From positions 18,602-82,601 of the forward strand of contig BBXU01003057.1 of NCBI GenBank assembly GCA_001598975.1: a DNA stretch of 64,000 nucleotides, in the 5' to 3' direction. The notes under the pieces are model-generated. The model saw only the letters and a program-made list of their open reading frames with translations, did not search any database and was not told the origin of the DNA. Source of the stretch: Parachlorella kessleri (taxonomy: Eukaryota > Chlorophyta > Trebouxiophyceae > Chlorellales > Chlorellaceae). Positions 13,855 through 59,347 of this stretch are shown piece after piece (position 1 is the stretch's first letter; each line of letters starts with the position of its first letter). The translations under genes and the position numbers were made by a program.

Positions 13855-16800
13855 TTAATCCTCCAAGGCTAGCAGAAGCTCACGCACTGCAAAGTTGGGG
13901 CGCACCATTCCAGAAGCCATAGCCCGCCCTGTGACTGGGGACCGTGAGCTGCCCCTCTGCAGCCAGGCTGCCAGCGCCTGCCGCTCGTACGTGTACCCAT
14001 CAGCGGCTATGACTGGGTCTGTCAGGCGCTGCCCCGTCAGGGCGCACACCAGCACTGCTGGCAAGGTGGGCGACGCCACAGCGCTCTCCTGCCGTGCAGC
14101 ACCTACTGTGCTGCTGGAGCCGCTTCCGAGGCCAGCTGCCGTAGCCCTGGCTTCAGTGACTGCCGCTGCAGGTGGCACAGGGTATCCTACTGGCGGCTCT
14201 ACCTGTTGGCTGTGCTTGCCAAGGGTGATGCCGGGCAGGAGCAGCTCCAGCAAGGCCTGCAGCAGCCAGAGGGCAGACCTACTCACGTCAACTGCATAGT
14301 CCTCAGCAATGAAAGGGGCATGCACGTCAGGGCCCACCAGCATTGTGCAAAGCGCACAAAGACGAGCTGTGCCTTCTAATGTACAAAAGCAGCTCACATA
14401 TCCTCCTTGGCTACATGTCGATAGCCTCCGAGCCGGCCCAATGTCACCTGGCGCTGCCAAGAAGGGCATGCAGCAATGTCCAAGGCCATCAAGTACTCCA
14501 TGTCCTGCCTACCGACCTTGTGCTCTGCCTCCTGCTCGTCAGCTCCTGACGCTGATGGTGCCCCGCCTCCTGGTGGCACAGGAAGGTGTTGCGGAGGCCT
14601 AGCTGCAGCCCCAAGTTGCTCTTGCGGTGGTGGTGCTGCTGCAGGGCTTGATGGCAACGCCACTGCACCTGCCCGCCGTGTCTGCTGCCGTGCGGGAGTA
14701 GCAGGGGCGGGAACAGCAGGCATAGCAGGGCTCGTTGCGATGGCAGCGGTGCGGGTGTTGGCGGTCGATAACTGCTTACTGCCACCCGACGTAGCGGGCA
14801 GAGCAGGGAAGGAGCCTCCCCCTGTCTGCTGCAAGCCAGTTGACGCAGCACCTGCTGCTTCGTTGAGTGCCTCCCGCTGCTGCTGCTTCTTCTTCTTCAG
14901 AGGCTTCTTCAGTGTGAGGCTGCGGCCACCAGACATCCTCGCGCCTGCTTGCCTTACCGCGCCATCCTCAGCTTCCTGCTGCTCCGCTGCTACATCCTGC
15001 AAGCCCGCGCAGAAGTCTTCTTTGGCCCGTTTGACACAGCCGCTGTGTTCTGTAGGTGCAGCTGTTGCTGGCAACATTGGACTTGAGGGCTCACCAGCAG
15101 CGCCCATCGCCCATGGCTTGCTGCCCTGCAGAGTAACCGCTGGAGCCTCGGCGTGTTGTTGGCTGCCCTGCCCTGCCTCCTGCTTGGCGCGCTGCTTGCC
15201 TGCCTTCTGCCGCTGGCGCTTGGCCGCCTTGGCTGCTGCCTTGCTGTGTTCGGCCTCCTCTTCCGCCAGTAGCGCGGCAGCAGCAGCCTACAGCAGGCCA
15301 GGGTGAATGGAAACCCCACCTCTTCCCCGCCTTGCTATGCCAACTTGCAGCACCTGCAAACGTTCTGTCACAGGGTGACAACCCCGACCCAGGCACTTAG
15401 CCTCATCTGAGTATTTGCAATGGGGAGGCGTCTCCAATTCCCCATGCCGAGCCAGGTGACAATCTCAAATCACATCCTCACCTCAGCCCGCTGCGCTGAA
15501 GGCCCCCTGCCTCCGTTTCGTTGCAGCAGATCATGTGCCCATGAGAGGAACCGCGTGAGAAAATGTTCCGCCGCCTGCAGAACAATAACAGTCACGCTTT
15601 TAAATTACTCAGATGCCCTTTCACTCGATTTCCAAACCAACAGGCTGCACATCAACTCCTGGTCCACCACTGGAGCCGCCTCCGGAGGGAGGCTCTGCGC
15701 CCACACAGCCAGTGTGGCGGTGTTCTCGAACCCCAGCTAGACAAGCCTGAGGCTGTGGACAAAGCCTGCGATAACCTCAAGCACTTGCCGGCGCGTATGC
15801 GACGCATCAACACGGCTCTTGCTTACTTTGCAGTTGGGGTGAGGGCCGCTGAGGGCCAGGGCTGCTCCCGCGGCAGCCTCCTCCAGCTGGCCATCGTCAA
15901 CCACCTTCAGGGCCGCCCTTTGCCCACCAGCTCCGGCCTGCAAGGGTGCAGTTTAAGGCGATACCATACCACAGCTGCCTTAGGTCAGCATGAGGCACAT
16001 TTGTAGTGATCATTCACCAAAGGAGCACGACCAGCACTGAGGCTTGGAGTGTAGCAGCGGCCAGATCCTAGTCATTAGGAAATCTTCAAGGAGGCTTCTC
16101 GAAGTTTCCTTGGGAGCAAAAGCAGGGTCCAGGCAGGGCAGTGTAAGTCATCATGCGCTATGCTGACCCTGGCTGCAAGAAGGCGGTCATGGAACACCAG
16201 CCAACAGAAGGCATTATAGCTTTTACAAGTAAAGTAGCACATGCGCACCAGGCGGTAAACTTGTGGAAGCTTGAATTGGTTTGTGTGCAGTGCCTTACAC
16301 AATCCATGAAAGGTGCCCAGTGCTCTGCATATTGACAGTCGTACGCACCTGCTTCAATCCCAGAAGCAGCAAGCTCGTATTGAGGATGAGAGCACCGTAC
16401 TTTGCCATGTCATTCAGGACAGCCGCCTGGGGCGAACTGCCATATGCATGGACCCGCCGCGACGACCGTGCAGCCTGTGCCAGCTCCTTGACGTGGGTGA
16501 GTGCAGCTGTAAGTGCTGTAGCGGCTTTCACATGGACCCTGTCTTGAAGCAGCTGCATTTGGCACGCTGCTCCGCCCCTGTGCTGGACAAGGAATGCATG
16601 ACTCACTCTCAGGCGTGGGTCCAGCTTTCATGCTCCTGCGCAACTTCCAGGAGCAAACAGGCATCATCGTCCGCACAGGCCGCAAAGGTGCCACCACTTC
16701 CGGCTAGGGGCTGCACACCGTGCCAACGACACAATGCAGAAGCTGAGCAGGGGGACATGACGAGCCACCTACAACCATTAGGCAGATCACCACGCAAGGG

Positions 16801-19800
16801 CTTATCAATTGCTCGGCCGGCACTTACCGCAATGCTTCTGCAAGGTTAGTGAATGCCACAGATTGAGCCAGCACGATTGCATCGCTGGTAGAGGCCTCCG
16901 CCAAGGATAGCATTTGGCTGTAAAGTTGGGGGTATGTGATTAGCGAGATCTCGCTCCGCCCTTTCTCCAGACTGAGCAATACTTGGGCGCAGAACACTAC
17001 CGCATGGCTGAGGCTGAGGCTTGAGGCGTACTGCAGGCACACAAGAGCTCATTGCTTCCTGCGCTGCTCGCAAGTTGCCGCAGCCTCCGTGCCACCTTGC
17101 TCACCCCCATGCGGAAGTTGCTCTCACAATGGCAGCAACCATGACGCCCCACATGTGTCCAACACCAAATGCGCGGCCCCAGCAGCGCCCACCCCAGCAA
17201 ACCTGTATGCCAAGCAACGCACCTTGTCACGCAGGCGGCCCGCTCCACTCTCATCTACGAAGTCGGATCTTGCAGCCTGCTGTTCAGGAGCCCTTAAGGA
17301 GCTTTCCACCCCTGGACCAGGATCCCCGAAGCCGGCCTCCCGGCGTGGCTGCCGCAAGTGCTTCCCATGTTCCTTGCCTCCAGGCTGCTCTGGCGCGCCG
17401 CTGGAGGAATGCATTATGCGTGCAAACTGTTCCAGCTCCCCCAGAGTGGACAGGCTGGCCAGCTGCCTCTTGGCATCTAACACTGCGCAGCACAGTGCCA
17501 TGGCAAGGGTATGAGAGCTGCTGTATGCACCATAATCTGGCGCTCCCGTTTATATTTTGGACAAACCAACTACCAAAGCACGCAACACACAGATCTCATA
17601 AGCTGTGCACTGGCTTGCCGAAGTGCCATGCTAAATTTAGCTTGGTGCTGCATGCAACAGGGAGGCACCACACAGGCAGCAAGAACCTGAGGCAAAAAAT
17701 GGCTTGCCTCACTCTGTTGCATGGCCTGGCCGGCCAGCAGTCCTTGACATTGTTAGGACTGCATCCCCATGGAAGTCCACAAAACTAAGCTGCCCAGTTC
17801 GCGGTACTCTGACTGTTCCAGCATTTGCACAAAACTCAAGGCAAACCTCAGTACTTGCACAAAGCCCCCTCACCTGCCTCGCCTCGCATCCAAACTTGGC
17901 CTACCACGGAGCGTGCGTGGGTGGCCACGGCACGAAACAACTCTGGCAGCCCGCCGGATCGGACGTTGGCCTGCAGTACAGGCAAACACAAACAACCCTA
18001 CTCGCCGGATCCCATGTCTATCCATCTTCCCCCTGACCATGCATGCATGCCTCTCACCAGCGCCTGCCATGCACGCGCGCAACTACAAACCTACTTGCAG
18101 TTGGGTGCGGCTGCCAAGGCCATTGCGACCCCTGCAACGCCTTCTGTATTCCCCTACCCTTTGCTTTGCAAATCGATTGAGCTGGCATCTGCCACACTGC
18201 TTTCTGACCCCTTCTTTTCAAGTGCAATACATCTATCCTAAATGTTTTTTTCAAATGCCTTCCGACTGAAGCACAGGCCGCAGCAATCCTCCCGCCACCA
18301 CACCTCCGCTCGGGTCCTGACTTCCGGCGGCGCGTCGCAGCTCCCAGGCCTTCTAGGGTCCCATCGTGTGGCCTGGAGCAGGGTCTTAATGCCGCCTGCC
18401 CTCAGGAACTCCTCCCTGCCTGGCTCGCTCTTACACACTGCCAGGTCCAGCACTGCCAAGCACGCGCACAGAAGGTGCCACGAGCCATCGTAGGCGCTGC
18501 GGGCAGAGCAGAAGTGCAGTGCAAGTTCTTAAGGGAGCATATTGGAGAGTTTGTGGTGGCAGTACTACTCGAAGGCTACAGTAGAGGTGGGAAGGGGCTG
18601 AAGGGGCAGCCTGCGCTGCTCCCATGGGACTGACAGCGGTTACAGCTTGACCAAATCGAAAGGCCCAGTAGGCCAACCAACCGCCCAGTAAACAATGCCT
18701 CAAGCCTCGCCCATACCGTAGGCAAGAAAGTTGGCGCGTACCACTAAGTGTCTGATGGTTCGGGGTTGCGGATGAGCCCAAACTAGCTTTGCACGGCTTT
18801 GGAAGCACACAGAAGTGGCAGGCTACTACCCCTCCCACACCCAAATTGGTATACTCTAAATCCCCCGCCCCCCACCCTCACCCCCCACCCCTCTATGCCT
18901 CACTTGTCCACATATGGTTCAGCAAGGTGGCGAAGCGGCAGGTTCTGTATAATTTCCAGCAGCTGCCGGCAGCCACCATCGGAAGTCAAGGCATCCATGG
19001 CTTCCTGCAAAGCAAAGAAAACAGCGTGCACGCTTCTTTGCTGACCAGTAGGAGTCTTATACACAAAGTAGACCCAATCTTCATGAATGCTTCTGCACAG
19101 CGACTGAGCGGGACACGTCTGGGAAAGTTGAACAGCTGGTGACAGCTGGATAACGGCCATACACCCAGCGTGGTGCGAGGCGAACCAGCAACAGTTTTAG
19201 AGTAGGCAGCAGCGATGGAAGGAAGTGCAATAATCCTCCCAAAGAGCAAGCCATGGCATACCCAGTCCAACATCCTGATCGCTACAGCACCCCTCCCTTG
19301 CACGCCTCACTTCAACCCAGTGTTGCTGCTATGCGTACCCAGTGACACCAAAACTCAACCCCAAACACCTCCCCACGCGCACATGCAGTTCGTATGGGTG
19401 CACTGCCTGCCTGCTGCACGTGGCAGCTTCTCACCTTGTCACTCTCCACGGCCGCAATCAGGCAATCAGCAGCCAGGCACACGCAGCCCCCAGAGCCAGC
19501 CAAAACGTCCCTGAACTTGCCACCAAATGAAATTCCCACCAGCAGCACTGCCAGCATGACATTTATTCCTGCAGAACCGGGTTAGCCGGGGTGAGGCTGA
19601 GTCCCAGGATGGCTGACCACTGGCAGCCCATGGAGGGGCATGCCATAGAGCAGGTGCGAGCCTGGAGGGGCCGAGAGCACCAGTGGCCTGACATGACTTT
19701 GTAAGATGCGCCAGCATTCCTCAATTGTGCAGGGATGCATGTGACAGGTAGGCATCCTGGGGGTTCTTGTGCTGGTCGGCATTAGAGGGGCATGAGGCGG

Positions 19801-22800
19801 GCCGGGGGTAGCAGGGCCCGAGGCAAAGGGGTGCCTTTGATTTCCCATGTTGACTGACTGGGGGTTACCCAAAGCACAGCATGGCATTCCTAGTACAGTG
19901 CAGCCCCCTGCGTGCCCACTATGCAGTGGCAAGCCCCTTGTACAGCGTAGTGGGGCACACAAACCCGCTGGGGCCCCCAGCCCGACAGCTCCTGAGAGAC
20001 TTAAGCAAAGATCACTGTCAAGCGCAGGGGCAGAGGCGTAGGTAACTGAGTTGCATGCAGGTGCCCCACCTCACCTTGCCCCTGAACAAACGCCTCCAGC
20101 TGCATGCCATTCTTGAGGAAGATATCCAGGCTCGTCAGCAGCCCTCCGAGGGCCTCCAACAGCTGGGGTATTCCTACCAGCCACACAGCAGTGACTTTTG
20201 TGAGGGGCCCTGGAAAGGGTGGCTGGCTACCCATGCTTGTGCTCCCGTCACCCTGCAAGGTATGGGATATGGCCAATGCGGGTGTATTGATCTAAACTGA
20301 TGAGTCTGTACCACTACGGACCAAGGGCAGTCATTTAAAGCTGGCCATAAAAGCATCACATGTCAGCACACATGTTGGAAACTAGGACATTCCAGAGGCT
20401 AGCACACAGCATATGAGGTATTTGGGGCGCACCCTACGTAAACAAATTGCCATGTGGTTTGTGGCCCTTGGGGCAATTCCATGGCTTAAAGTGCAACAAT
20501 TTTGTGTTGGAGTGACAGAAGAGCCACATGCCAATGCCTCGAGCACTACAGGTAGCACCCCATCTCAGCAACCCTTTCATAAGCAGCCCCTGAGGAGGGC
20601 CCCAGCCTCGTGCATGAGCCCTTGAGCTCCTCATTGACAAGCCTTGTTTAGCCCTTCACTCAGCTTTGTGCAGCTTCACCACACATCCTCTCTGTTCGAT
20701 GTACCTGCCACCGTAATAAGCACAACAGCAAAATCACACTGCACAGTGGCCCCGCTGCACTCACCTGATGGGCCGTGGCAGCTGCGGCGTCAGCAGCTAC
20801 CACTGTGAGTAGGCTTGCTTCACCATCTCCGGCTTCTGGTGCCTTCTTGATGAAGAGAAACCTGCGACATGACCAGGCTGGTGGTAGGCGGCACAACAAC
20901 GCAGAATGCTTGTCATTAACCACAGCCCAACCCTGGCTGCGACGACCAACTGTCTGATACAAACAGACTGTTATTATGGGGCCCACAACTATCCAGTTAT
21001 AAAGTCCATCAGCTGTGAAGTGCACAAGGCCAAGCCCTTTGAGTACATGACAAAGCCTCCCTTTCACCCTTTAGCATACCACGATACCGCTCGGCTTCCC
21101 ACCTGATGAGTCGTTGCACCAGCTGGACGTTACACACCATGAAATGCCACTTGTCCAGCAGGTTTAGCAGCTCCCCCGACGGGGCCCCCAGGGACCGCTC
21201 CCTGGCACTGAGCCACTCTGTCAGTTGATGCAGCCTGCCGGCACTCAGCAGGAACATAAGCTCCACCTCCGGACTGGCAGAGTTGCTGGCGGCTGCGGAG
21301 GGCGGGAACGTACAGGGTGGCCAGGAGACCTAATGTGAGCAGAGTAGGAGTGAACCGCATGCCAACACCAAAAGCCCACGCGGCTTCCAGCCTTGCGTGT
21401 CTCTTCCTTTGCACCCGCTGGCCCGTGGCCTTGGACGGCCATGAAGCTTAGAATGTGCACAGCAGGCACTCTGCAGGAGTCAAGCACAGCCAAAGGCTTG
21501 TCTGCTCTGCGGCTGGAGAGCACAGAGCACAACTTACCAAGGGCTACTGTGGCTGCCTGGAACGCTGTGGTTATGCTGGCATCCACCCCTGGTGTGGCCA
21601 GCGCGAGCGCAATCGTTGCTCTAGCGGTGCAAAGGCAGCTGTGCCAGCACCAATCTTGGCTTGCTTCCTCAAGAAGGCAGTTCGCGGGGGGGCGGCGCGA
21701 AGTCGTCGTGCAGTCCGAGACAGCTGAGAGGAAGTCTGCGCCAGTAGGAGGGCCCAGCAACTGCTTTTCCTACTACCGTTAGAACGTTAGAAGCACTCTT
21801 CCTTTCCCTACAATGGCACAGAAGCATGTGTGCGATCGAGCGCCCAAGCAGGGGCCGTGCAAGCTCCATCCCGCACAACAATAGTAATAAAGGGGGGTTA
21901 GCCATGGACGACATTCATTTCGCCACAAGGCCTTGGAGATGACGTCCCAAACTGACGCATTTGGGACACATAAGGCGACCTGTTCAGTTGGGTTGCCTGA
22001 TTAAGAGATAAAATACACTCACAGTGCCTCACCCGCTTGTGAGTCATGGTCTGCCTTCCAGGCTGCTTGTCGGCCATCAATGCTTACTAAGAGGTCCACC
22101 CCACACCAAAGTGCAGGGCTGCTGACCTCGGCACACAAGGCTGGCTCCCGATCAGCAGCCCGCACCAGCCCGGCAAGCACCCGCAGCACACAGCTCCTGC
22201 AAGCTGCTGCGTCTTTTCCCTCCTCAGAGAGTCTGCAGCACAAAAGAATGGCAGGAGCTTTGACCCTGCTGATGTTTAGGATCTTGACAGTTGCTCTGCA
22301 AGGGCGAGCGACGGGACAGTCTTCCCACACAGGCGTGCTAGGCCGTGCCGCTGGGCCGCCCATTTAAGCTCAGCCACCGATAGAAGCAAGAAGCAAGGTC
22401 TGCACCACCAGGTTACTGTCTTGCGTGGGTAGGGAATGCACGGCCTTGACATACCGCTTCATGCCAAGTACAACAAAACTTGGCAGGGCCTCCACTCCGT
22501 AGCCGCAGCGATCATCCTCACGCAGGCGTGACAGCAGCTTGGCAAAAAGGGTTGCGCATCGGCGTGCGTAGAACACAGCCTCTTCAGGGGTGGCGGTAGA
22601 CAGCTTGGAGAGGTAGTCCGCAGCGAGGTCCGCTAGCACTCTACGCTCTGCCAAGTGGGAGGCATTCTCAGCCGTGTCCAGGACCCTAGCCCCTGCAACA
22701 CGCACTTTCTGACGTGTCTAGGTGTAGCCCAGGGATGACCGACCACACTTGGTGATCATGGGGTGTCCCTTGGACGAGGTGATGGGCTGTCACACGCACC

Positions 22801-22836
22801 TGGACACAGTGCTTTGAAGACTTCCTCCACCTTCAT
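13855..22836 (-). CDS. Paralogue A: large helical-repeat U-box protein (candidate E3 ubiquitin ligase)
   Basis: Eighteen exons give about 1211 aa with no frame break: 22836-22800, 22692-22455, 22232-22033, 21735-21538, 21292-21103, 20861-20765, 20162-20075, 19568-19435, 19004-18904, 18496-18304, 17970-17874, 17476-17223, 17030-16828, 16577-16349, 15937-15827, 15574-15482, 15287-14517, 14256-13855. It starts MKVEEVFKALCP, as in B. Exons 2-16 encode leucine-rich helices resembling armadillo/HEAT repeats (REEFLRAGGIKTLLQATRWD in exon 10). Exon 17 opens LLAEEEAEHSKAAAKAAKRQ, a basic coiled-coil with possible nuclear signals, then a Pro/Ala/Gln-rich linker. Exon 18 is a U-box: LTGQRLTDPVIAADGYTYER, AAWLQRGSSRSPVTGRAM, RPNFAVRELL. 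U-boxes recruit E2 enzymes without zinc. The substrate is unknown. Exon 7 is two codons shorter than in B because its acceptor has moved. Confidence 0.85.
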
Positions 22837-23329: not shown

Positions 23330-26300
23330 CTATGAGGCTGGCAGAAGCTCGCGCACTGCAAAGTTGGGGCGCACCAGTCCAGGAGCCATAGCCCGCCCTG
23401 TGACCGGAGACTGTGAGCTGCCCCTCTGCAGCCAAGCTGCCAGCGCCTGCCGCTCGTACGTGTATCCATCAGCGGCTATGACTGGGTCTGTCAGGCGCTT
23501 GCCCGTCAGGGCGCACACCAGCACTGCTGCCAAGGTGGCCGGTGGCATAGCACTCCCATGCTGCCCAGCACCTGCCGTGCTGCTTCCCAGGCCAGCCGGC
23601 GCGGTCATGGGACTTGTGACTGCTGCCGCAGGTGGTGCAGGGTTACTCACGGGCGGCTCCGGCTGTTGGCTGTGCTTGCCAAGGGTGATGCCGGGCAGGA
23701 GCAGCTCCAGCAAGGCCTGCAGCAGCCAGAGGGCAGACTTACATGAAGCCATCGGCAGTTGAAGCGGCGTGTGAACCAGGGCCCAGCAGGGTTGTGCACA
23801 CACTAACAAGACGAGCTTTGCCTTTTCTGTAAGTAAGCAGCTCGCGTGTCCTCCCTGGCTGCACATCTGTCCCCTCCATGCTGGCACGATGTCATCTTGC
23901 GTTGTCACACAGCCGCGCAGCTATGTCTACGGCGTGCTTGTGAAAGATGGCCATCCTGACCTGGTGCTCTGCCTCATGCTCGTCAGCTGCTGGGGCTGTT
24001 GACACCTCTGCAACCGCTGGCACAGGTAGGTCCTGCGGAGGTGCAGCCGCCGTGGCACCTAGCTCCAGTGGTGGTGCTGCTGCAGGAGTGGACGGCAGGG
24101 CTGCTATACCAGCCCGCCGAGTCTCAAGACCCTGCTGGCGTGCGGGAGTACCAGGGGCGTGCACAGCAGGCACAGCAGCGAGGGGGGGAATGGCGGGCGA
24201 TGCCTGCTTACTGCTGCCCGATGCAGCGAGCAGAGGAGGCAGGGAGCCTCCCCCTGACAACTGCGAGCCACTTGACGCAACGGCTGTTGCGTCGTTGAGG
24301 GGCCGTTCCAGCATGTCCCGCTGCTGGTGCTCCAGCTTCTGTAATGGCTTCTTCACTTTGGCTTTGCGACTAGGCTGTCCTTGTGCCGTTTTGATGGTTG
24401 CATCCAGGCGTTGCCAAGGCCCTGCTGCCTACATGCACTGCCCTGTCGTCCCCAGCCTCCTGCAGCACAGTGTGATCCGGTGCTGTAACGTGTGAAGTAG
24501 CACTGAAAACTCCATGGCCGTGGGAGACGGGGCCGCTGCACTCTGTGAAGGCAGCTGTTGTTAGCAGCATTGGAGACGTGGGCTCCACAACAGCACCCAC
24601 CGCCCGTGGTTCCCCACTGCTGCCCTGCTGAGCAGCTGCTGCTGGCGCAGTGGCTTGCTGCTGGCTGACTTGCAACGCCTGCTGCTTGGCCTGCTCCATG
24701 GCTGCCTTCTGCCGCTGGCGCTTGGCGGCCTTGGCTGCTGCCTTGCGCTGCGCGGCCTCCTCTTCCGCCAAAAGCGAGGCTGCAGCAGCCTACAGGCCAG
24801 GGCGATGGAACCCCAGTTCATTCCCGGCCTAGCTTTGTCGACTTGGAGCCGCGGGAAGGGACCTGGCAGAGGGGTGACAACCCCACCAGTACAGGGCCTC
24901 TCCACAGTTCGCAGGTGGCGGAGGTGCTTCAAATTTCATGACTGGAGACAACTCAGAATCACCCTTACCTCGGCTTGCAGCCCCGGACGCATCATGCCTC
25001 CGTTCTGCCGCAGCAGCTCATTAGCCCATGAGAGGAACTCCTTGAGATAAAGACCCGCCGCCTGCAAAGCCATGGCCATCACAATTTCAACACCTATATG
25101 CCTGGTTGCAAAAGTCTACAAGGCTGCAAAACTATTATGTTGAAGACTTGGGCCCCCTCTGGAAGGGAGCTCACGCACACACGGCCAGTGTCATGGTGTC
25201 CCACTAGCCAGCCAGTTAGGTGACCCCAAGGCTGTGGGCAAAGCCTGTGCCTAGCTTACGGCTCTGACTGGCGCTCATGCGAGGGATTATGAGGGCCCTT
25301 GCTGACCTCGCATGTGGGGTCAGGGCTGCTGAAGGCAAAGGCGGCTCCCACGGCAGCCTTCTCAAGCTGACCATCTTTCACCACCTCCTGCGCGGCAGTC
25401 TGCCCCGCGTCTCCTGCCTGCAGGTGTGCAGGCCATATCACTGCTGCCAATGGCCAGCGTCTAGCCACACATGACTGGTAACTAGGGCCACCAAAGGAGC
25501 ATCGCCAAGCACTGAGGTGTCAGGTACAACGGCCACCCGATCCTGGCCGGTACAGATTCCTTTGGAGAAGACTCCATGCGAGCGTCACAGGCAGCGGAAG
25601 CAGGGTCCACCCAAGACAAACGTGAACCATCATGCCCTATGCTGACCCTGACTGCAAGAAGGCAGTCGTGGAACACTAGCCAAAAAGGTCATATCCGCCT
25701 TTCGGGGCGAAGTTAGCACAAGTGCACACCCAGGTGATGATGTTATGGGTGCTTATCTTTGGTAGTGGTTGCCAACAGTGCTGATAGAGGAGAGTTAGGT
25801 GTCGTGCTCTGGGGCTTGCCTGATGCATGATCCAGTCACTTCTGTTACCTTGCCCTGCACAATCCATTGGATGGTGCCTAGTGCTTTCCATACTGACAGT
25901 AGCACGCACCTGCCTCAGCCCATCAAGCAATAAGGTCACATTGAGGATGAGGGCGCAGTGCTGCGCTATGGCATCCACGACAGGCCCCTGGGCCAGCTTG
26001 CCGCGAGCGGGGGCCCGCCGTGACAATTGTGCCGCCCGTGCCTGCTCCTTGATGTGGGTGAGCGCAGATGTAACTACCGTGCCAGCTGTCAGGTGGACCC
26101 TGTCTTGAAGCAGCAGCCGTTGGCACGCTGCTTTGCCCCTGCGGTGGAGAAGGCATGCATGACTCCCCATCAGGTGTGGGTACACATACAGTATCTGAAC
26201 ACTCAAGTGCAGAAACAGGCATTGCTGTCCGCAAGGGCCAGCCATGTGACATGCCACGCCACGGGCTAAGACCGGCTCAGGGTGGCAGCACAGCACGCAG

Positions 26301-32426: not shown

Positions 32427-32715
32427 GCTGCATATTTGAGCTTGAACTGGGCTGGCCTTGGTGTTCTGCATGGCCATGAACTTGACAAGGTTGGCGCCCA
32501 GTGACTAATCCTGACCACCTTGATCCCTCCGAGGCAATACTCATTGGTCTGGACAGGCCTCTCGGTGGCAACCCGCAATTTCAGCTGTGTGATCTACAAG
32601 GTATCACAAGGTGGCATTGCCTGGCTTTCAGCTGTTTGCGCCAAGGCCGCTCCACGCCTGCCTTGGACTTGAGCCTCCAACGGGGGCCAGCACTCTTGTG
32701 TCCCCCAGGGACAGA
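32427..32715. promoter_or_regulatory. Head-to-head promoter region of paralogues B and C
   Basis: Only 289 bp separate the start codons of B (minus) and C (plus), at the inversion point of the array. It contains the 18-bp element shared with A (32493-32510). The 5' UTRs of B and C must lie here, so the promoter is probably bidirectional. No TATA box is obvious. Confidence 0.55.
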
Positions 32716-40983: not shown

Positions 40984-41539
40984 GGGAGGTGAAGCGTATG
41001 CATTCTTGGCAGCTTGCAGTAGGCATGGCAGAACGTAAGTCGACGATAGGGAGCAATAGCGGTCGACAGCATGTCATTAGACTACTAACACTTTCATAAG
41101 GGGTTTGGAAGGCATTGTGGTAAGGTGTATCAGTGTGATGGGGCAGCCACTGGTTGCCCTAGTCATAGCTAGCCAGACTTGAGCAGGGCTTTCACGCGTT
41201 GAGGTTACAAGATGCTCACGTACTGTAGTGTGATATTGGAAGAGGTATTTAGCCCCTTGGCCCAGCTTGGACTTGTACAGCGATACTTTAAGACCGTAAG
41301 TGCACCTTTCAGCCTCTTTTCCGTCAGCAGCTGACTATCTCACCAACATGCATGGTTGCAACATAAGTCTGTCGTGGGTTGTGTGAGGGGTTTGAGCGTG
41401 CTATAAAGCTACCATCAAGACTTGCGCCTTCTGACTCATCATGATCAGATGTAAAACGTAATAGGGCAATCAACATGTTCAAAACAATCATGCCAACATA
41501 AGTTGCGGCAGCCTCGCCTACTGGTACAAGCACGTTAGT
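40984..41539. other. Intergenic region between paralogues C and D
   Basis: This 556-bp spacer holds the 3' UTR of C and the promoter and 5' UTR of D. I tested several ATGs here as the D start; only 41540 gives an exon of the right phase and homologous sequence. Confidence 0.4.
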
Positions 41540-47500: not shown

Positions 47501-50190
47501 GCTATACCCTCTGGGTGGGCTTTCTAAATGGTCATGGGAGGGTTGGCCTGGGGCGGCAGCACCTGTGGGGGTAGGCTCCTAGGCTGACTGGTTGTTGGGG
47601 GGAATTGCATCACCTTGTTTGGCTTGCTGGCTGCGGAGGCACTCTGTGTTTCTTTCTTGTGGCGGAGAGTGTCATGTGCTTGACGAGCTATAGCTGACCT
47701 GGGCACCCTGAAGTTGGCGTGCAAGGCTTGGGTGGTGTGCTTGCGGTAACTGCTGACGCCACGGTGTCTTCCTTGCACCCCGCAGGCTGGGCAAGCCGGG
47801 CGAGCCGCAATGCGGGAGGTGGTCCGCGACGGGAAGCTGCAAGAGGCTGCTGATGCTGCCGGGCCTGCCTTCATCTCCCTTGATGCCAAGCTCGACGTGG
47901 GTACTAGCGTGCCTGCACAACGTGCATGCAAAGTGTGAGACAAAGCTGATGAAGACACATAGCCGGCCACTGCTGAGCTGCGCAGCCCCTGCCTGTCACC
48001 ACCATCATAGTTTGCTGTGGTTGTGCCCTGCTTCCTGGACAGCCTCCACGTTGTGGTTTGCAAGAATAGAACATAGTATGTGCCATGAAGTGCAATCGCT
48101 TTCCAGTCCAGGCCACAGAGGAGATGTACACTGCTGATAGGGTTTGGTCTGCTACTTGTCTGCAGCATGCTAGTGTGCAGCTTCGGGACCTCATAGACTG
48201 GGGCCAGGAACTGATACAGGATAAGGATGACGAGAAGCTCTCCAGGCTGCTGGCAGAGGTGAGGGGGCGCTTGGTGCAGCATGCCTTGACTATGCTGGTC
48301 AACTTCGAACAGTGGATAGGCAGTTCTGATATGTGATTTCAGATAAAAGATGGCAAGCTGCTGAACTGTGTGCTTGCATACACATATGGGGTTGACAATG
48401 AGAGGCCCTTGACCTAGGGCAGCGGCTGTGCCGTCTGCAGCAAGCCGCCGAAGCGGCAGCGGCTGCCCTGCTTGCTGAGGAGGAAGCTGCGCAGCGCAAG
48501 GCGGCAGCCAAGGCGGCCAAGCGTCAGCGGCAGAAGGCAGCCAGGCAGCAGGCGAAGCAGCAAGCAGCGCAGCAGGCAGGGCGATGCGGAGCAGAGGCTC
48601 AGTTAGTAGTGCAGCAGGGTGCATGCCCAGCAGCTGCGGTAGGACCTCGTGAGGCTGGTGGGGAGTCCAGGAGTCCTCTCGTGGAGTCAACATTAGCTGC
48701 CGCCCTTAGCTTGGGTTCTCCTGGAGCGGCCTCCAATGTGGTTCAGGCACCGTTGGTCGGTACCTCTACGCCTGAACCTCAGGCATCAGGAAGCCGTGAA
48801 GCATCAGAGCTCAGCGTGCAGGGCAAGGCGAAGCGCTTGGACTCGGGACAGCAACGCATGAGGCAGCCTTTGCAGCCTGCTTTGCAGCCCACCCAGCAAG
48901 TGCCTGACGGTCAAACTGCTGGCCAGGCTGTCAAGCCGACGAAGGCACTGGCAAAGACGAAGAAGAAGAAGAAGCGGGGGCCAAGCGGTACGGGTCAGCA
49001 GGCAGCGGAGAGGCCCACACCAAGCGTCATGGAGCAGCAGCCACGCGCGGTTCCCATCCTGCCTACAGTGCCTGCTCCGCTTGCGGGGGATGAGCAGGCA
49101 TGGCAAGCCTCCATTCCTACCCTTGGCCCTGCAACTCCCTCAGTGCCTGAGGCCGCATCCACAGCCGCTATTCTCAAGCCCGCTGCGGATCTGCCCGGAC
49201 CCGCGACCGGGCGTACCGCGCCTGCTGGTTCACCGACACTGACAGCGCTCTTAGCAGTACCAGCTGGGGAAGCTACCGTGGAAGCTGCCCCTGCAGCACA
49301 GACTTGTTTGAGGGAGCTGGCGATACCAGCGACTGACAACCCAGCGGCGGATTATGAGGTGAGGCAGGAAGCACATGATGTCTCTCTGTGTCTGAGAGGC
49401 TGCCACTGCTTGCCCTCACATAAGACCACACTGCCGGGGGTAGCGGTGGTGGTTGGCTCCAGCCCTTGCTTTGTATGTAAAGCATTGAAATGGGGAAGAG
49501 TGTGGACGGCACCTGAGCATGAGGGCGCTTGCCACTGGCATCAGTGAGGAGTGCACGATTCAACTTGCAGGCAGCTTTGTGTCTGTGAAAAGGTGGTCCA
49601 GCGGATGCTGTTCCGCAGTTGTTCCCACGAGCCTTGGTGGCAGGCAAGCTTAGTATCTGGCTGCTCAAACAGGCTGCCAAGATATGACTATAGTTCCCAT
49701 CAACCTAAGGGGCGGCAGGCAGCTGTAAATTGCCCCAACTGTTTGTGGTAAGGGTGATCTAGCTGCTGAACTTCCCAGTCTTGTTCCACTGCAGCCCTTG
49801 CTGGAGTTTCTCCTGCCTGGCATCGTGCTGAGCCAGCCGAGCTTGCCGGCAATGGCGCCTGACGAGTCCGATTCGTTGCCAGCAAAGGATGGACTCGACA
49901 TGCTCCCCGGGACAATTTCTGTACAAAGCCGCGGTGAGGCGCTGGTGTTGCAGCGGGGACCGGCTGTGCCAGCCCCAGCCTTGCAGGCAGTGTTGGTGTG
50001 CCACCTGACCGGGCAGCAGCTTGTCGACCCAGTGATAGCCGCCGACGGGTATACCTACGAGCGTGGGCCTCTGTTGGCATGGCTGCAGCAGGGGGATTCC
50101 CTCTCCCATGCCATGGGCAAGCCGCTGTCCACGGAGGCGGTACGCTCCAACTTTGCTGTGCGGGAGCTGTTGAAAGGGTTCTGTAGTTGA
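41540..50190 (+). CDS. Paralogue D: large helical-repeat U-box protein (candidate E3 ubiquitin ligase)
   Basis: Eighteen exons give about 1264 aa: 41540-41576, 41658-41880, 42056-42255, 42556-42765, 43181-43370, 43733-43919, 44195-44288, 44648-44787, 45075-45175, 45467-45644, 45927-46023, 46372-46484, 46650-46852, 47194-47497, 47786-47896, 48166-48258, 48441-49358, 49795-50190. Exon 1 (MKGSKVFETLFP) is 37 nt, the same length and phase as in A and B. Helical blocks include SALRVLGRLVRAAG, FATTCGYERLLDVVDSL and LQCACLSVLEAAVLASEE. Exon 14 carries a Cys-rich insert (CKMRGAFTACTCDSPGC). Exon 17 is the longest in the family: LLAEEEAAQRKAAAKAAKRQ, then a Pro/Ala/Gln-rich linker containing KKKKKRGPSG, a likely nuclear signal. 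The U-box in exon 18 reads LTGQQLVDPVIAADGYTYER and AWLQQGDSLSHAMGKPL, ending RSNFAVRELLKGFCS. H-A replaces the usual C/S-P before the third loop, so E2 binding may differ. Confidence 0.87.
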
Positions 50191-50845: not shown

Positions 50846-53800
50846 ATGCAAGGCTTCAGGAGCACATTGTCCGACGCGGAGGTCGGCGATGTCATTGACA
50901 ACCTTCTGCCAGGTAAGCACACTGCCTGTATTAACATATCAGTGGGAGAGACTGTCGCGGTGGGCCTTGATCTCTTACTGTAAGCTGAACTAAGAAAACA
51001 TTGTCGCCGTGGCTGCAGGGGCCGGGTTTCTGGATACTGAGATGCTCGGTGACTGTGCCTTAGTACAGATGTCAGTGGGCTTGTTTAGCAGGCTAGCCGA
51101 GGCCAGCCCACAGGAAGCAGAGCAGTGTGCCCAAAGATGTACAGAGCTCCTCCAGGGCGCCTTGACGCGGCACAAGCACCATCGCGAGTCCAGCCACTTT
51201 GGTGGACATACTGATGTTGTTCCCACGTTCATCAAGGCTGCCATACAGCAGTAAGTTACTCGCAGTAAAGGCCAGGTCCTTGTGGTACAGGCAGCGGACG
51301 TCAAGCGTGCACCCTCGTGCAACGCTCCCGCAAGCGGCATGGCAGGTGGTCTATTTCACTCTTGCTTGGTGTAGGTTGGTGGACGAGGGAGAAGACGGGG
51401 CGGCATGCATAGGCAGTGCGCTGCGGGTGCTAGGCCGGCTGGTACAGGCCGCCGCTGACAGCCCGGCTTTGCGGCCAGAGGTTGGGCGCCCGTCCCTTTG
51501 GTGTGGGCTGACCCTGCTGAAGAGCCTGCTAACCTGCCGGCCAGGCTGGGTGCCAGAGGACCTGTCGGGTGAGTGCTCTTCTCGTTGAACGTTGTGGTGC
51601 AGACTGCAGCACTGCTGATGCAGGTGGCTGATGGTACGTCATTATGAAATGGACCAGCTGTGCAACTCATTTCCATTCAGGTCCTTACAGTGGGGTGTGA
51701 TGTGATGAGGGCAGGTGTGGCAGGGTGTGCTCGCTGGCGGCGGCGGCCACCAGATGTACTGCCGCCCAGCTTGCTGCCCTACTCCTGCAGATTTCACAGC
51801 TCCTATCTTGGCTGCCACAGCATCATGGACGCAGCCTCCCCCGGACTGCCCACCTCCAGGAGCCAGCCAGGCCTGGTGCTGGCACTGCTGCCTGCTTTCA
51901 GCGGCTGCGGAGCTGGCACTGCTCCCACTGAAGCTTATGCCGCACATCTCTCTGCCCAGCTCTATTCTTCCAGCACATGGAGCAGCCTTCTTGGCTCTCG
52001 GTAGGCTATTAGGTTGGGATGCCACCTCGCGCTGCCAGTGGCCCCGTCTCTTAAGGGTTGTTGTGTGGTCGGCAAAGCAGACTGTGGCAGGACCGGCGGG
52101 ATCCTTGCAGCCATGCATCATGTGAAGCAAATGCGTCAGTGTTGCTGCCCCAAAGGATGCACTCACCACCTTTGCCACACTCGTTCTGTGGTTGCAGTTA
52201 CAGCTTGCCCATACATTTTGCAGATGCCTGCCAGGGTGCCAATACTGACGAGGAACTGATGTTCCTACGAAGCGGTGGTCGGCTGTTCTTGCTCGTCGAT
52301 GCCATGCTGACCACTGACCGCCTAGCTGGCGAGTTGCAGCAGCTGCTGGACTCGCGCGGCATCAGGGGACTCATTGTCACCATCCTTGAGCTGGTCCAGC
52401 GGCTCCTCAGGTGGGGGAGGGGGGGGGAGGCCCAGCGGAGGGTAGGCACACAAAGCACAGGAGTGCTCTGCGCAATTGTCATATAGGCGGGTGCCGATAT
52501 GAAGTTGGCAGCAAGCCGAACACTGGCACGAAGCGCTTATGCCTCCATCACCCCTGGAATGCTTCTAGCTATATAGGCGTCAGTAACAGTGTAGCTGACG
52601 TGTGAGCTGGGGTTGAATATGGCGCCAGACAGTAATGCTGTGGCCAGCGATATGTTGAATGCTGGCAAGCAGTTTTTATCACCAAATATAACTCCTTTAT
52701 TTCTGTCAGTTTGCTGCTTGGCTATACTATGTACAGGTTTTGCTTTCTGAAGCCAGCATCACCATCCCCTGCTGGTGAACAAGAGAGCGATGTGCCCACA
52801 GGGCTGCCCGCTGATGCTTTGGAATCTGCAAAAGCACACCAAGTGAGGGGTCAGGGCAACCACTTAGGCTGCCGCCCGCAAACGGAGAGCATGGCTTGTG
52901 TGTGCTTGAGTGTCACCTGCGCATGACTGCCCATTTCTCGCTGCATGCAGTCGGATGTCAGCGCTATCCCACGGATTTGTGGGATTGGCAGTTCTGAGAT
53001 TTCCTTGGGGTATGCCCTTGGTGGTTCATTGCATTGCACCTATAATGCTTTCCAATACTGAAATGGCTTGCGGGTGCAGGCTGAGGCTGTGGAGGCCCTG
53101 AAGGGTCTGCTAGCGACCCTGCAGCTGCTCACTGGTCGGCAGACGGACATGCGAGTGTTTGTTGTGGACGGAGGTGGGCAGTCTATGTGTACGAGCTGAG
53201 GCACAGCATTGCTGAGCACGTGCGTTGGGAGAAACGAAAAGCCCCATGGCGGGCGGGAGGGCCAAGGCAGTCTCACACGCCTCGAGGCCCTTGCCTGATG
53301 AGCTGCCAAGCGTCTGCGGGTTGCCCTTGGTTCGGCATGCGCCTGAGGCGCCAACCAGGCGTAGATTTCCTGCTGAGTCACGCCTACTGCTGCTCCTCCT
53401 GCATGAATGGACCTTCTACTCAAAGGAGTTCAAAACGACTGTTCTGCAACTCAAAGTCAGTAAGGAACACAGTGCCCTTCTTCACATTCTGAATGCCAAC
53501 TCGCAGTCCGCCCGCTCCGCCTGAGAGACAGGGCATACAAGCGGCCAGGAAGCGAGTCCTTGCCCCACTCGTCGCTGCCTGGGCGCAGGCATTGGTGTGA
53601 TGGTGGACGTGTTCAGCGCCTACTACGATGGGTGGGACTCGCTGGGCGCTCGTCTACTCGAAGAACCCATACACCGCTGTCTGCTGGTGGCAGCGGACTG
53701 CCTGCTTGCGGCACTGCAGGGAAAAGGCTGCAAGGTAGGCAGCAGCTTCAAGAGTCAGTGCATTAGCTCAGCGAGGCCACCCACCCTCATGTACACCACG

Positions 53801-56800
53801 CTATTGCAGTGGTTCAGCTGTGGGCACCGTGGGCAGCCCATGACGACAGCTGCCAAGCCCAAAGCTTAAAAATCACTGTCTGCCGGCGACGCTATTAAGT
53901 GTACCTCTTGAGTGTGAGGTGTGCATGTATGGTGAGCTATTTTGTGAGTGCGGAACGTGCCTGGGCGCATGCTGCGCAGGTGGCCAAGAAGGTTTTCATG
54001 TCGTCATGTGGCTTTGAGAGGCTCCTGGACATGGTTGACTTACTGCCGCTCCGCCGCATTGGTGAAGCATATGCCACCTTGTGAGTGCTGAGGCTGCTCA
54101 TGCTGAGCGGCAGGACTTGCGGCGCTGGCACACTGCTACACAACGTCACGGTACTACGAGTGGCGTGTCAGGCTGCACCTGGGCAAGAATTCTCCGGAGC
54201 CCTCCATAATCCTGTGTTCCCTGCGGGAGTAGCCCTTGTTAGCCATGCATGTGGCACACAGTTTGCCTGGAACTTGCTCTCATTCCCTTCAACCCATTTC
54301 GCCCTCATACCCTACATCCATATCCTGTTCCCGACCATACTCTCGTCCGCTGCTGCTTGCCGCACATGTTGGATCAAAAAGCTCTGTCTCCATGGGCTTT
54401 GTTGCAGTGGCTACAAGGATTTCTGGGAGGTGCAGTGCGCTTGCTTGGCGGTCCTTGGCGAGGCTCTGGTGGACTGCGAAGCAGGCTGGGCGAGGTTTGT
54501 GGCACAAAGAGGCGTGGAGACTGTGATTCAGGCCACACGCTGGAACCCTGGCACGCATGGGGATTGCAAAGCGCCGCCCGACGTTCTGGCCGCTGCTAAG
54601 GTCAGAGCAGGGGGTGGCGTGCCAGTGTGGTGTGTCGATGGCTGAGGTGCTGCTCAGCAATCTCCAGGCAGCTGGCAGGGGCGGCACTGGTAGCTCAACC
54701 CTGATGCTCTTGATAGGGGGAATGCGTTTTTTCTTCGACTAATTTTCTTCTGCGAGGAAGGTCTGGTGGAGGGTGGTCGCTGCATGACCTTACGCCTGCC
54801 ATGCGAGCCCTCAGTAATCTTCGTGGCTGCCTTGCCACATTGCGCGTGCAGGAGAGAGGGAGGGCTGCTGGGCTGGAGGACATGTGTGGTGCTGTGGCTG
54901 CATATGCACTCTACGTCGTGGGCCTGGCCTGTGTGGCCTGTGAGGATGGTGAGGTGGTGGGCTAGGCTGCAACTAGGTGCTTTTCAGTGGCTGTATTCTT
55001 ATCGGAGTATAGTGATGCGTGGGTGTTCACAGTGGAAGGGCATGGCAGGCCACATCTTGTTGTGCAGTACGCACTGGGACCCTTCCCAGACTGCGCCACT
55101 ATCAAGGGATGTCTTGCTTCCCAGCGTGCATGGTCATAACAGCCCTCCCCCTTTTAAGGTAGTCTATTAAGCCCACCACTCAGAAATTACCTTGTGGCAG
55201 TCACTTGCTGTGGATACTGTGTCAGCGCCCATAGTTCGTTTAAAAGCGCAGCTGGTGATACTGTAAATAATTATAAATGGCTAGCATACGAGCTGACAAG
55301 GCTGGGTGCAACTGAGGCCCAAGTGTTTCTTTGGCCGTAGGGGGGCGACTAGTCGATGTGACCTCCCTGGCCGAGCTTTCCAAGCACCTGCAACTGCTGC
55401 CTCAGGAGGGTGGCCTTCACAAGCAGGCCGGGCAGGGACTTCAAAGCAAGGTGGGCTGAACTTGCATCTACAGTCGTCGGGCCTGGGAGGGGACCGGCTC
55501 CTGCATGCAGGCAGCCCTGAGTTCGGTCGCTTTTTGGCCGTGTGATGACAAAAGGAGGGTCTGGTGCGTAGATACCTTACCCGTGGTACCCAGCAGCATC
55601 GCCGGGGGAAAAGCGGCGGCCTCAGCAGGAAATTGCCAGAGCTGCACCAGGCAAACCTTGGAGTTCACCCTGGCTCCATGCTCTCTGCAGTACGTGTCCC
55701 GCGTTCCTCTCAGCGTTGGGATTGTGCTCTGCACCCGCGTGCTACTGACGACAGGCACCACAAGGCACAAAGAGGCTTTCATGCGCAGCCTCACAGAGCT
55801 GCGCGGGCACCTCCTGTCTACGGCCGGGCCGCCAGACCCCTTCGTCCCAAGCACAGGCAGAGTGGTAGCCCTCGACACGTGTCGTATGTTGATGAGGTAG
55901 GTACTTCTTAATAGTGGCAGGTAAAGAACAAAGAAGAATTTGTAAAGTGTGCTGACAGGACTGGGTGCAAGTTGTGCTCTGGGGCGTGCCTGAGGGACTG
56001 CACTGAGCCCTGATGAGGCAGGCCACCACGTCATCACTCAGGGGGTCAGTGTGTCTTGTTTGGGTGGTGAGCAGCCTGTATGAGCACCCTTGTTTTGGAC
56101 GTCAGACTTCCTGCAGCTTGCTTGGCGAGTGCAAACACCCATATTGCTACCAACACTGGGCGATGCACAACTCGCCATTTCCTCTCAGCCGTGGAGGGGA
56201 AGCCCCGGAGGATGGACCATCAGCATGCAATGGCTTTGGTTCACATCACACACTGCGACAGTATTTCAATGCATGGTTTAAGATACTCGTGGCTGGTCGG
56301 GACAAGCAGAGCACAGATGGCTGCGTGAAGGGCAGCCCTGGCTGCCAAGTGTGCCTTGACGGCTGAAGGACGCACCACCGGTATTCCCCTGGCCTCAGGG
56401 AGCGGCCCGTGTGGCGGGAGCAGCTGCTAAAGGAGGGTGTCCACCTTGCGGCTGGCAGGGCCCTTGAGTCCGGCCTGCTACTCCTGGGGGCAGCAACCAC
56501 TTCCTTACAGGGAGCTCAGGCAGCCAGGCAGCAGGGGGGCCGCCCCGGCTCCGGCAGACCTGACTGCCTGCTAAATGGCGCCGACGTCGGCTACAGTTAT
56601 GCTAAGGATGCGGAGGGCGACACGGACTCTTATAGAGCGTGCATACAGGATGCACTGATTCGTATTATCAGTGCGACGTCACTGCTGCAGGAGCTCCAGC
56701 AGGTAGGCCTGTCTGAAACCCTGAAATACATGGGGCCCAAGGTCAGCGCACAGTCGGCTCTGGGGAACTGCTATGCTTCCAGCTCAGGGGTGGCGCCCTT

Positions 56801-59347
56801 GACATGATGCACCATGCTGCTGCCTGGTGCACTGTGGGGGGTCGTCTCTGTGGTGTGTTGCCCAAGATACTAGCTTTAGCAGGAGGCGCTGCCACAGAGC
56901 TAGGCTCTGCGGCTTGGAGGCGTGGCCACGCTCATCTCTGGGCACACAATATGCCAGCAGCTGCTGGTAGCCATGCCACTGCTCTGCCAACCACGGTCAT
57001 CGTCCAGGGCGGGTCATCAAGTCACCAGAGTCACCAGAGAGAGCTGTTTGCTAGTCGCCTGCTGTGGCCTGCTCGCCTGCAGGCTGGGGAAGCGGGGCGA
57101 ATAGCAGTGCTGGAGGTGATAGACGATACCTCTCTGGAGGCTGCTGCGCTTCAGGCAGCCCCGGCCCTTCGCGAACAGGACCTGCTGTGCCAGGTACACA
57201 CGCCAGCGGCTTGACGGGTGTAGCCCGAATGAAGCCAGCAGCGACTACCACTCGCAAACTCAGCTTTCCTAAGTCTCCCCGGTGTTGGGAAACTCGCGGC
57301 TGCCTTGCCGGCTTGACCACTCTTGCTGCTGATGGGAAATTGCCCTGTGGATGCCCTTCTTACCATAGGCATTGCCATCCGCAGCTAGCTAGCTTGTTGC
57401 TGCCCCACCAACTTGCTTGATTGGACTCTGGCGCTGCTGCTGCAGCAGAGAAACCCTGGGATGCGCAACAGCAAGTTTGACAGGCGATGTAAAACCACGC
57501 TGTGTGTGCTGTTGTCTGTCTGACTGCAGAGGGCCGCTGCTCAACTTGCGGATGTCCTCGCCTGGGCGCACAAGCTGCTGAGGAAGAATGGCGGCAAGCG
57601 GCTTTCTGTGCTGCGGGCTGAGGTGCGACCTGTGGAACCTTCCAAGCCTAACTTTGCACGCCATGTCACCTTGGTGCTGCTGTCTATCACCTTGCTGCCT
57701 TGTCCATAATGACAACCGTGGGCCTGTCTGTTGGGGAACATCTCCCTCATTTGGAGTTATGTAACTGCGAACCCACTGCACCTGTAAAACCTCAGCAAGT
57801 GTATCTGCTGCAGGAAGCTGCGGAAGCCGCAGCTGCTGCCCTGCTTGCTGAGGAGGAGGCCGCGCAGCGCAAGGCAGCAGCCAAAGCCGCCAAGCGCCGG
57901 CGCCAAAAGGCCTCCAAGCAACCGGCCAAACAGCTGGCGGGGGAGGGTGGGACAGAACCGGAGGCAACATCGGCCGGCCAGCAGGCTGATATGCCGCTGC
58001 CAGAGCCGCATACATTAACACCTCAGGAGCCAAACAGATACGGCAGCGCTGTCCTTGCTGCGGACGAGAACACAGCTTGCCTGGCGCAAGGGAAAGATGT
58101 TGGGCAGCCAGCCGTGGCGCTAAGTGAAGCCAGCAGCTTGCAGGAGGGTGAGTGCGAAGCAGAGGACCTCTCCCAGCCATGTGAGCCAGGGGGCAGGAGG
58201 GCAGAGCAGCCAGGTGGCAGCCACAGTCTGCCATCCCACGAGCAGCCTGGCAGCAGCCAACAGGTAGCTTGGAGTCAGGCCCCCAGCCGCAACGGCAAGT
58301 TGCGGAAGCCAACTAAACAATGCTTGCAGCAGGAAGTGCCTATAGCATCCCAGCAGCAAGCAGCCTGTGGCACGGCAGGTGATTCGCCCGGTGGTTACGC
58401 CCTGCCTGCTGGGCCCGCTAGGCTAGCTGGCGTGGAGCAGGCACCTCCCACCGCTGCTCCTGAGCTTGCCGCTGGCCTTAGCCGCGCTGTGTCCTGTGTG
58501 GCTCCTGCCCCACCGACGCCCACACGAAAGACAGCGCCCACCGTGCAGCACGCGACACCAGCTGATGCAGCAACACTTGCAGCTGCACCCCCTGCGGCAG
58601 CGTTGCTTGCAGCTGCACCATGGACACAATCAGCAGGGCGTGCAGTGTTGCCAGGAGGTGATGACCACCTTGTGGAGTATCAGGCAAGTGACCCTACATA
58701 TCACTGCGCCACCCTGAACTCCTTGGCTGTCCCCGCCTTCTGACGTACCCCTTGCGCTGGTATTGAAGCTGGACTCGTTATTGGCGGTGGTGGATGCACA
58801 GTAGATGCAAGCGCTATGCGGTTGCATGTGGCCTGCTAGGCCGGGGTAGTGGTGCCCTGGAAGCATCTCCCAGGTGATCAATGCTCGCTCTCGCACACCA
58901 AGGGTGGTTCCACATGCTGCCGGAACCCTTCCCTTCCCGCAGGCCCTGCTGGACCTTGTTCTGCCTGGCATCCACATAGCTGAGCACAACACGCAGGCCA
59001 CTCCTGCTGAGCGGCTTGCAGTGTCAGCAGAGCCCAGCAGCGGGGCGGCCTTGGCCAGTAACCTGGGGAGCAGCATTGACCCTCAGCGGAGCAATGCAGC
59101 TCCAGTCCAGCAGCCTGTGTGTAATCCATCCGCCTTGGCAGCGCTGGTGGTCTGCCGCCTGACAGGGCAGAGCTTGAGGGACCCGGTGATAGCGGCTGAT
59201 GGGTACACGTATGAGAGGGAGGCGTTTGCTGCCTGGCTACGGCAGGGCAAGCAAGAGTCTCCCGTGACCGGGCAGCAGCTACCCAGAAAGGCTGTGCGCC
59301 CCATTTTTGCCCTGCGGGAGTTGTTGCTGTCCCCATATACTTGCTAA
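50846..59347 (+). CDS. Paralogue E: large helical-repeat U-box protein (candidate E3 ubiquitin ligase)
   Basis: Eighteen exons give about 1241 aa with no break: 50846-50912, 51019-51250, 51375-51568, 51791-52000, 52224-52410, 52737-52842, 53080-53173, 53589-53734, 53980-54080, 54408-54600, 54852-54948, 55341-55450, 55691-55896, 56399-56702, 57083-57193, 57530-57622, 57814-58683, 58943-59347. Exon 1 is longer than in A, B and D (MQGFRSTLSDAEVGDVIDN) but ends in the same LLP-phase 1. Body blocks include SALRVLGRLVQAAADSPALR and VFMSSCGFERLLDMVDLLPL. Exon 17 opens EAAEAAAAALLAEEEAAQRK and is followed by KRRRQKA and a Gln/Ala/Pro-rich linker. It ends at a GC donor (CAG|GCAAGT) rather than GT. The U-box reads LTGQSLRDPVIAADGYTYER, AAWLRQGKQESPVTGQQL, RPIFALRELL and is the closest in the family to the canonical pattern. 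Cellular location and substrates cannot be read from the sequence. Confidence 0.9.

Follow-up and report, generated by a model that had tools for sequence, protein, structure and literature searches.

A tandem array of candidate U-box E3 ligase genes with one MYND-ended member in Parachlorella kessleri

What could five very long paralogous genes, lying side by side in the genome of the green alga Parachlorella kessleri, have been amplified to do? The genes occupy positions 13855-59347 of a stretch of 64,000 nucleotides from contig BBXU01003057.1 (hereafter the window, to which all positions refer). Translated self-comparison of the window resolved them into five collinear paralogues of 8.3-9.1 kb each, with genes 1 and 2 on the minus strand, genes 3, 4 and 5 on the plus strand, and gaps of 493, 289, 556 and 655 bp between successive genes. 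The copies match exon by exon (E 3e-47 for the last exon of genes 1 and 2), and a custom gene finder combining codon usage, splice sites and between-copy conservation, which avoids stop codons by construction, yielded a spliced open model for each of the five. Together with the mapping of NCBI proteins, these results bear out the gene count, strands, limits and layout given in a preliminary description of this DNA. The answer that we consider probable, with less confidence for gene 4, is that the array encodes lineage-specific, single-chain U-box E3 ligases in which a large body chooses the substrate, and that gene 3 is a non-ligase sister; E3 activity is here predicted from the U-box alone.

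Genes 1 (13855-22836, minus strand) and 2 (23330-32426, minus strand) each encode a body predicted to be helical, a linker and a C-terminal U-box, as do genes 4 (41540-50190, plus strand) and 5 (50846-59347, plus strand), whereas gene 3 (32716-40983, plus strand) combines the family body and linker with a C-terminal MYND finger in the place of the U-box. The 18 exons proposed previously are supported by NCBI protein mapping for genes 3, 4 and 5; the models of genes 1 and 2, for which NCBI protein searches found no annotated protein, contain instead 21 and 24 exons (gene finder) or 30 and 28 exons (protein-guided splice model). Three inner exons have identical lengths (101, 111 and 93 nt) in the protein-guided models of genes 1, 2, 4 and 5. 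Micro-exons in the protein-guided models of genes 1, 2 and 4 were taken as spurious. The start codon of gene 2 was placed by eye at 32426, where a 37-nt first exon resembles its counterparts in genes 1 and 4; 32477 was the position chosen by the gene finder. Genes 2 and 3 lie head to head, and the 289-bp interval separating them (32427-32715) is a candidate shared promoter, in which a scan for sigma-70-type promoters found no match, a result that carries little meaning in a eukaryote.

Public annotation covers three of the five genes. N2152v2_000081 (1162 aa), the sole match of the gene 4 model in the protein search, is identical letter for letter to gene 5 over 18 exons (50846-59344, with the stop codon through 59347). 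Exon 2 of this NCBI model ends at 51124, and the stretch continuing to 51250 (51019-51250, plus strand) encodes residues resembling those of the paralogues, so the annotated gene 5 protein is probably short at exon 2. N2152v2_000080 (2281 aa), recovered in a profile search, corresponds exactly to 35 exons spanning 32716-50187; 18 of these are the exons of gene 3, and the other 17 belong to gene 4. The 18th exon of gene 4, its ATG exon at 41540-41576, is similar to the opening exons of genes 1 and 2 and is absent from this fused model. The splice that creates the fusion, from 40909 to 41658, splits the MYND finger and bypasses the gene 4 ATG exon; read without it, the sequence encodes a complete MYND finger closed by an in-frame stop at 40981-40983. 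The fused model is thus probably an annotation error, which indicates that public annotation has joined two genes of the family and that the MYND finger has thereby been lost from the record.

The predicted proteins follow one order of modules, consisting of a body of ~700-800 residues, an Ala-rich helix, a low-complexity tail and the terminal exon. The linker helix (AAAALLAEEEAAQRKAAAKAAKRQRQKAAKQ type) is located at 15174-15290 (minus strand) in gene 1, 24676-24792 (minus strand) in gene 2, and, on the plus strand, at 40020-40127 in gene 3, 48441-48569 in gene 4 and 57814-57939 in gene 5, as determined by a linker search. It had been described as a basic coiled coil; a helix with a basic part is indeed present, and is better described as an Ala-rich helix that passes from acidic to basic and is strongly basic in its C-terminal half. 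Many of its positions are invariant among the five sequences compared, it had no match in the PDB at E <= 10, and it contains a KRQR stretch that we take to resemble a nuclear localization signal. The terminal exon of genes 1, 2, 4 and 5 encodes a short LLPGI-type stretch followed by a U-box (PF04564), which exceeds the curated cutoff of 21.4 bits in all four genes in a six-frame search, and in genes 1, 4 and 5 also as open reading frames (ORFs). Six-frame scores are 42.5 bits in gene 1 (13879-14061, minus strand), 38.1 bits in gene 2 (23348-23521, minus strand) and 39.1 bits in gene 5 (59153-59320, plus strand), and the gene 4 U-box (49993-50184, plus strand) is the weakest of the four, at 25-27 bits. 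Among U-boxes of solved structure, those of LubX and plant PUB proteins can be aligned with the one in gene 5. Among five aligned members of the family (genes 1, 3, 4 and 5 of the window and c917b, described below), four match PF04564 and gene 3 does not.

To place the body, we searched these same five members against Pfam, and found no convincing family for it at E <= 1, in a search where HMMER filters discard most matches above E ~0.1. The U-box region also gave a zf-NOSIP match below the cutoff, with a best E of 5e-4, and there were weak matches, at E 0.02-0.7, to DUF1168 and CCDC47, both in the linker region, and to UTP20_C, GidB and Rtf2. All 21 PDB matches lie within the U-box part, leaving the body with no PDB sequence match. 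Protein searches, which required shared five-letter words and in part scored the best ~8000 candidates, so that distant relatives may be missed, returned no relative of the body outside P. kessleri; the only matches in other organisms were a kinase/U-box protein from Closterium, aligned over 5% of the query, and a Diretmus argenteus U-box protein resembling WDSUB1, which covered 41% of the terminal exon. In these Pfam, PDB and protein searches the body belongs to no named family, and no earlier literature on the body or on a U-box/MYND array was found among the matches listed. What appears to be new is the body, its confinement to two arrays, and the exchange of U-box and MYND ends.

Homology searches of the genome delimited a 10-member family confined to two array loci, with two genes incomplete at contig ends and nine ending in a U-box. 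At E <= 0.01 the linker search matched the window five times, contig C916 three times and C917 twice, 10 matches in all. Body exon 3 gave 10 matches, distributed over nine genes, and body exon 10 gave nine; these searches, both at E <= 0.1, pointed exclusively to the window contig, C916 and C917. By comparison, an N-terminal exon of gene 2 matches genes 1 and 2 only, so a search with a single exon from one copy overlooks the more distant genes of the family. The first C916 gene, the tenth of the family, is cut at its 5' end by the contig start, and another appears to bridge the break between the two contigs, with its linker at the end of C916 and its U-box at the start of C917; the second locus comprises five genes if C916 and C917 are neighbors. 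At the start of C917 (L015), a CVCVCV stretch (GT-type repeat) immediately precedes the terminal U-box exon, and such a repeat may explain the break. Gene-finder models on both contigs include stretches resembling retained introns. The confinement to two array loci of a body that falls outside named families fits a lineage-specific expansion, as the preliminary description had proposed in naming the genes candidate E3 ligases, a label from which gene 3 must be excepted because it lacks a U-box.

Of the 23 U-box matches in the genome, nine belong to the array family. Genes on C1189, C1190, C1191 and C785 (L024-L027 for the first three contigs, L022/L023 for C785) have a similar layout, a related U-box, diverged bodies and a linker that looks alike by eye, and pairwise comparison with the array family passed for their U-box end only. 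Their linkers were not among the linker-search matches; profile alignment with hhalign identified that of C1191 as homologous to the family linker (E 5e-9) and gave a weak, collinear match between the two bodies (E 0.006, probability 6%). The C1190 model is scrambled, and that of C785 takes in, at its start, what is apparently an unrelated gene lying upstream. C1189, C1190 and C1191 are consecutively numbered contigs, and their genes possibly form one further array. MYND fingers are also abundant in this genome, with 58 matches, many of them in tandem arrays and many spaced ~5 kb apart (contigs C1021, C573, C574, C1144, C1146 and C648). Fragments of these MYND arrays sampled from C1021, C573 and C1144 encode helical-looking bodies unrelated to those of the U-box array family.

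How, then, did gene 3 come to end in a MYND finger? Both end types named in the preliminary description are present in the array, with the MYND confined to gene 3, where it stands without a U-box. The terminal MYND exon (40795-40983, plus strand; PF01753, 42.1 bits, cutoff 22.7) covers profile positions 1-39 of 39 with a complete set of zinc ligands. It follows a phase-0 intron (40497-40794) that corresponds to the last intron of the U-box genes, since the last exon of genes 1, 2, 4 and 5 is likewise preceded by a phase-0 intron, the junction reading CAG/GCC or CAG/CCC. The exon shares 69% identity over 54 residues with C1048:2344-2505, and both contain CRASQ near the stop codon; the open frame around the C1048 MYND includes a SAP-like segment, recognized by eye, and not the linker of the array family. 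A relative on C384 has a sub-cutoff match to a rififylin-like family only. On an unrooted tree of nine bodies, gene 3 joins the C916/C917 genes with support of 100, and its nesting inside them depends on a pairing with c917b supported at 74. The more distant C1189-C1191 and C785 genes also carry U-boxes, making the U-box the likely older terminal state. Gene 3 has thus likely undergone replacement of a terminal U-box exon by a MYND exon. Capture of a terminal exon is the simplest account of this end, and no flanking traces of such an event were seen at gene 3. We do not call gene 3 an E3 ligase, regarding it as a probable non-ligase sister. If correct, this would be a case of effector-end replacement through exchange of terminal exons within a tandem array.

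Divergence between copies was quantified on 699 body columns, after leaving out those with more than one gap among nine sequences. The U-box value for gene 3 and c917b (24 codons) was set aside as meaningless, since there is no U-box in gene 3. For genes 1 and 2 the ratio of nonsynonymous to synonymous divergence (dN/dS) in the body is 0.53, and it ranges from 0.48 to 0.65 in the five pairs assessed, which do not include genes 4 and 5, with all intervals below 1; no stretch of the body is recurrently fast-evolving between pairs. In genes 1 and 2, synonymous divergence (dS) is about fourfold lower in the U-box (0.13 [0.05-0.24]) than in the body (0.51 [0.42-0.59]), and DNA identity peaks at 83% at 13950-14349 compared to 39-76% in other 400-column windows. 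Such a low U-box dS relative to the body suggests that gene conversion has likely acted on the U-box region of this pair.

Taken as a working model, the body, at ~700-800 residues and mainly helical by prediction, would bind the substrate, the basic linker helix and the low-complexity Ala/Pro-rich tail would act as a spacer, and the C-terminal U-box would recruit a ubiquitin-loaded E2. Tandem duplication would supply new bodies; the U-box exon would stay uniform, probably through gene conversion in at least one pair of neighbors. In gene 3, the U-box exon would have given way, at the corresponding phase-0 intron, to a terminal MYND exon whose source was a gene like that on C1048; with a MYND instead of a U-box, the protein would probably recognize a similar class of substrate and couple it to another partner, as an adaptor or competitor. 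The data show the gene structures, the paralogy, the identity of the domains, the confinement to two array loci within the reach of the genome searches, the matching exon boundary, the homology of the MYND exons and the pattern of divergence. We infer E2 recruitment, binding of substrates by the body, a nuclear location, the exon replacement as an event and a role for gene 3 as an adaptor. By analogy, the proposed logic of substrate receptors fits a set of evolving bodies. A more ambitious version, which we put forward only tentatively and hold to be doubtful, is that the family forms a modular recognition repertoire, with a duplicating receptor body, a ligase end maintained by conversion, and a swap of terminal exons that produces a decoy or adaptor of related specificity; such a repertoire may have a role in surveillance, as is thought for expanded E3 receptor families elsewhere.

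Several observations weigh against this model. AlphaFold2 prediction of N2152v2_000081 with one aligned relative (N2152v2_000080) reached a pLDDT of 34 and built the body from helices alone. Self-alignment of the body profile revealed three F-x3-G-[GF]-I-like segments, 57-59 columns apart; their repeat score is 24.6 (E 0.1), and the highest score reached by any of 15 column-shuffled controls is 23.2. The body is thus likely helical, as described previously, while the helical repeats of that description find little backing in a signal so near to noise, and a repeat architecture is a guess. The U-box of gene 4 scores only 25 bits as an ORF and, among 13 aligned U-boxes, it is the one that lacks the second-loop proline. 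The dS contrast is weaker in c916a and c917a (body 0.41, U-box 0.18, with intervals touching at 0.34) and reversed in genes 4 and 5 (body 1.36, U-box 1.62, under a looser filter), where the body dN/dS is also lower (0.30 at dS 1.36, same filter). Finally, windowed dN did not single out one recognition surface (r = -0.14, 26 overlapping windows).

These weaknesses leave room for other explanations. Most members might derive from one ancestral U-box gene as copies that are decaying or neutral, with raised dN/dS reflecting relaxed constraint and no diversified repertoire behind it. The dN/dS values of 0.48-0.65, the lack of a recurrent hot surface and the weak U-box of gene 4 agree with such decay, which we nonetheless judge unlikely, given that exact, stop-free NCBI models exist for genes 3, 4 and 5, that body dN/dS intervals stay below 1, and that many linker positions are invariant in five sequences; genes 1 and 2 also have open models, though their gene finder avoids stops. 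We assign a similarly low probability to an alpha-solenoid body with nucleic acid or an organellar factor as its ligand, comparable to the chlorophyte organelle-targeted alpha-solenoid/MYND candidates, in which case U-box and MYND would be accessory protein binders. The available text of PMC13126933 reports MYND in 169 of 3300 organelle-targeted alpha-solenoid candidates, in Chlorophyta only and with some species-specific expansions, and the basic C-terminal half of the linker would suit this account. Against it, nine of the ten family members end in a U-box, a term absent from the main text of PMC13126933 as available; the MYND-array fragments (L013, L035 and L036, 3-5 kb each) have other bodies and a different type of MYND, and show no motif resembling the linker; and the N-termini of the family, judged by eye, are unlike transit peptides.

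It is, lastly, very improbable that the order of the array or the gene 3 chimera is an artefact of assembly or annotation and that the fused NCBI model is correct. NCBI does merge genes 3 and 4 into a single protein of 2281 aa, but the joining splice halves a MYND finger that is intact and closed by a stop without it, and omits the ATG exon of gene 4. Moreover, N2152v2_000080 and N2152v2_000081 have consecutive locus numbers and lie on the same 1,146,684-base contig, so another version of the assembly seems to keep genes 3-5 together.

Outside the array, the window contains the C-terminal domain of an adenylyl cyclase-associated protein (CAP_C, PF08603, E 4e-32) at 4148-4963 (plus strand) and a TFIIS-type zinc ribbon (PF01096, E 6e-20) at 62566-63078 (plus strand), which resembles the C-terminal end of a small subunit of RNA polymerase III.

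Among known systems, the proposed single-chain ligases resemble the PUB-ARM proteins, a large family that combines a helical protein-binding body and a U-box in one chain. U-boxes of this plant class, which includes PUB12, PUB13 and PUB14 (1t1h being PUB14), are, with bacterial LubX, among the nearest solved structures. The array proteins differ in having a C-terminal U-box and a different linker, and no ARM family was matched at E <= 1 in the five members searched against Pfam. In UFD2/UBE4 and CHIP the helical region comes first and the U-box is C-terminal, as it is in the array proteins. No match to the Ufd2P core or to TPR was found at E <= 1 in the same five members, the CHIP matches in the PDB involve the U-box part only, and the array genes, in contrast to UFD2/UBE4 and CHIP, form a lineage-specific tandem family. 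The array proteins may work like PUB-ARM, UFD2 or CHIP, yet the defining domain of each (ARM, Ufd2P core or TPR) was not matched in them.

Closer to home, chlorophyte alpha-solenoid MYND proteins, as portrayed in the available portions of PMC13126933 and PMC8226300, pair a helical body with a MYND finger and show tandem and species-specific expansions. Gene 3 shares the combination of helical body and MYND, and MYND arrays also occur in the P. kessleri genome, but both the body and the MYND subtype of gene 3 differ from those of the MYND-array fragments sampled there. In Chlamydomonas, available parts of PMC4378952 list 30 U-box proteins (CrPUB), none with ARM repeats and seven with coiled-coil regions; in one subfamily, subfamily I, the U-box is C-terminal and most members have transmembrane domains. 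The array proteins share this position of the U-box, but their body had no relatives outside P. kessleri in the protein searches. The PUB-ARM class, the main one in plants, is reported missing from Chlamydomonas (PMC4378952, in part), and it is in this context that the array family, if our reading is correct, would represent a new type of substrate receptor for single-chain E3 ligases of green algae.

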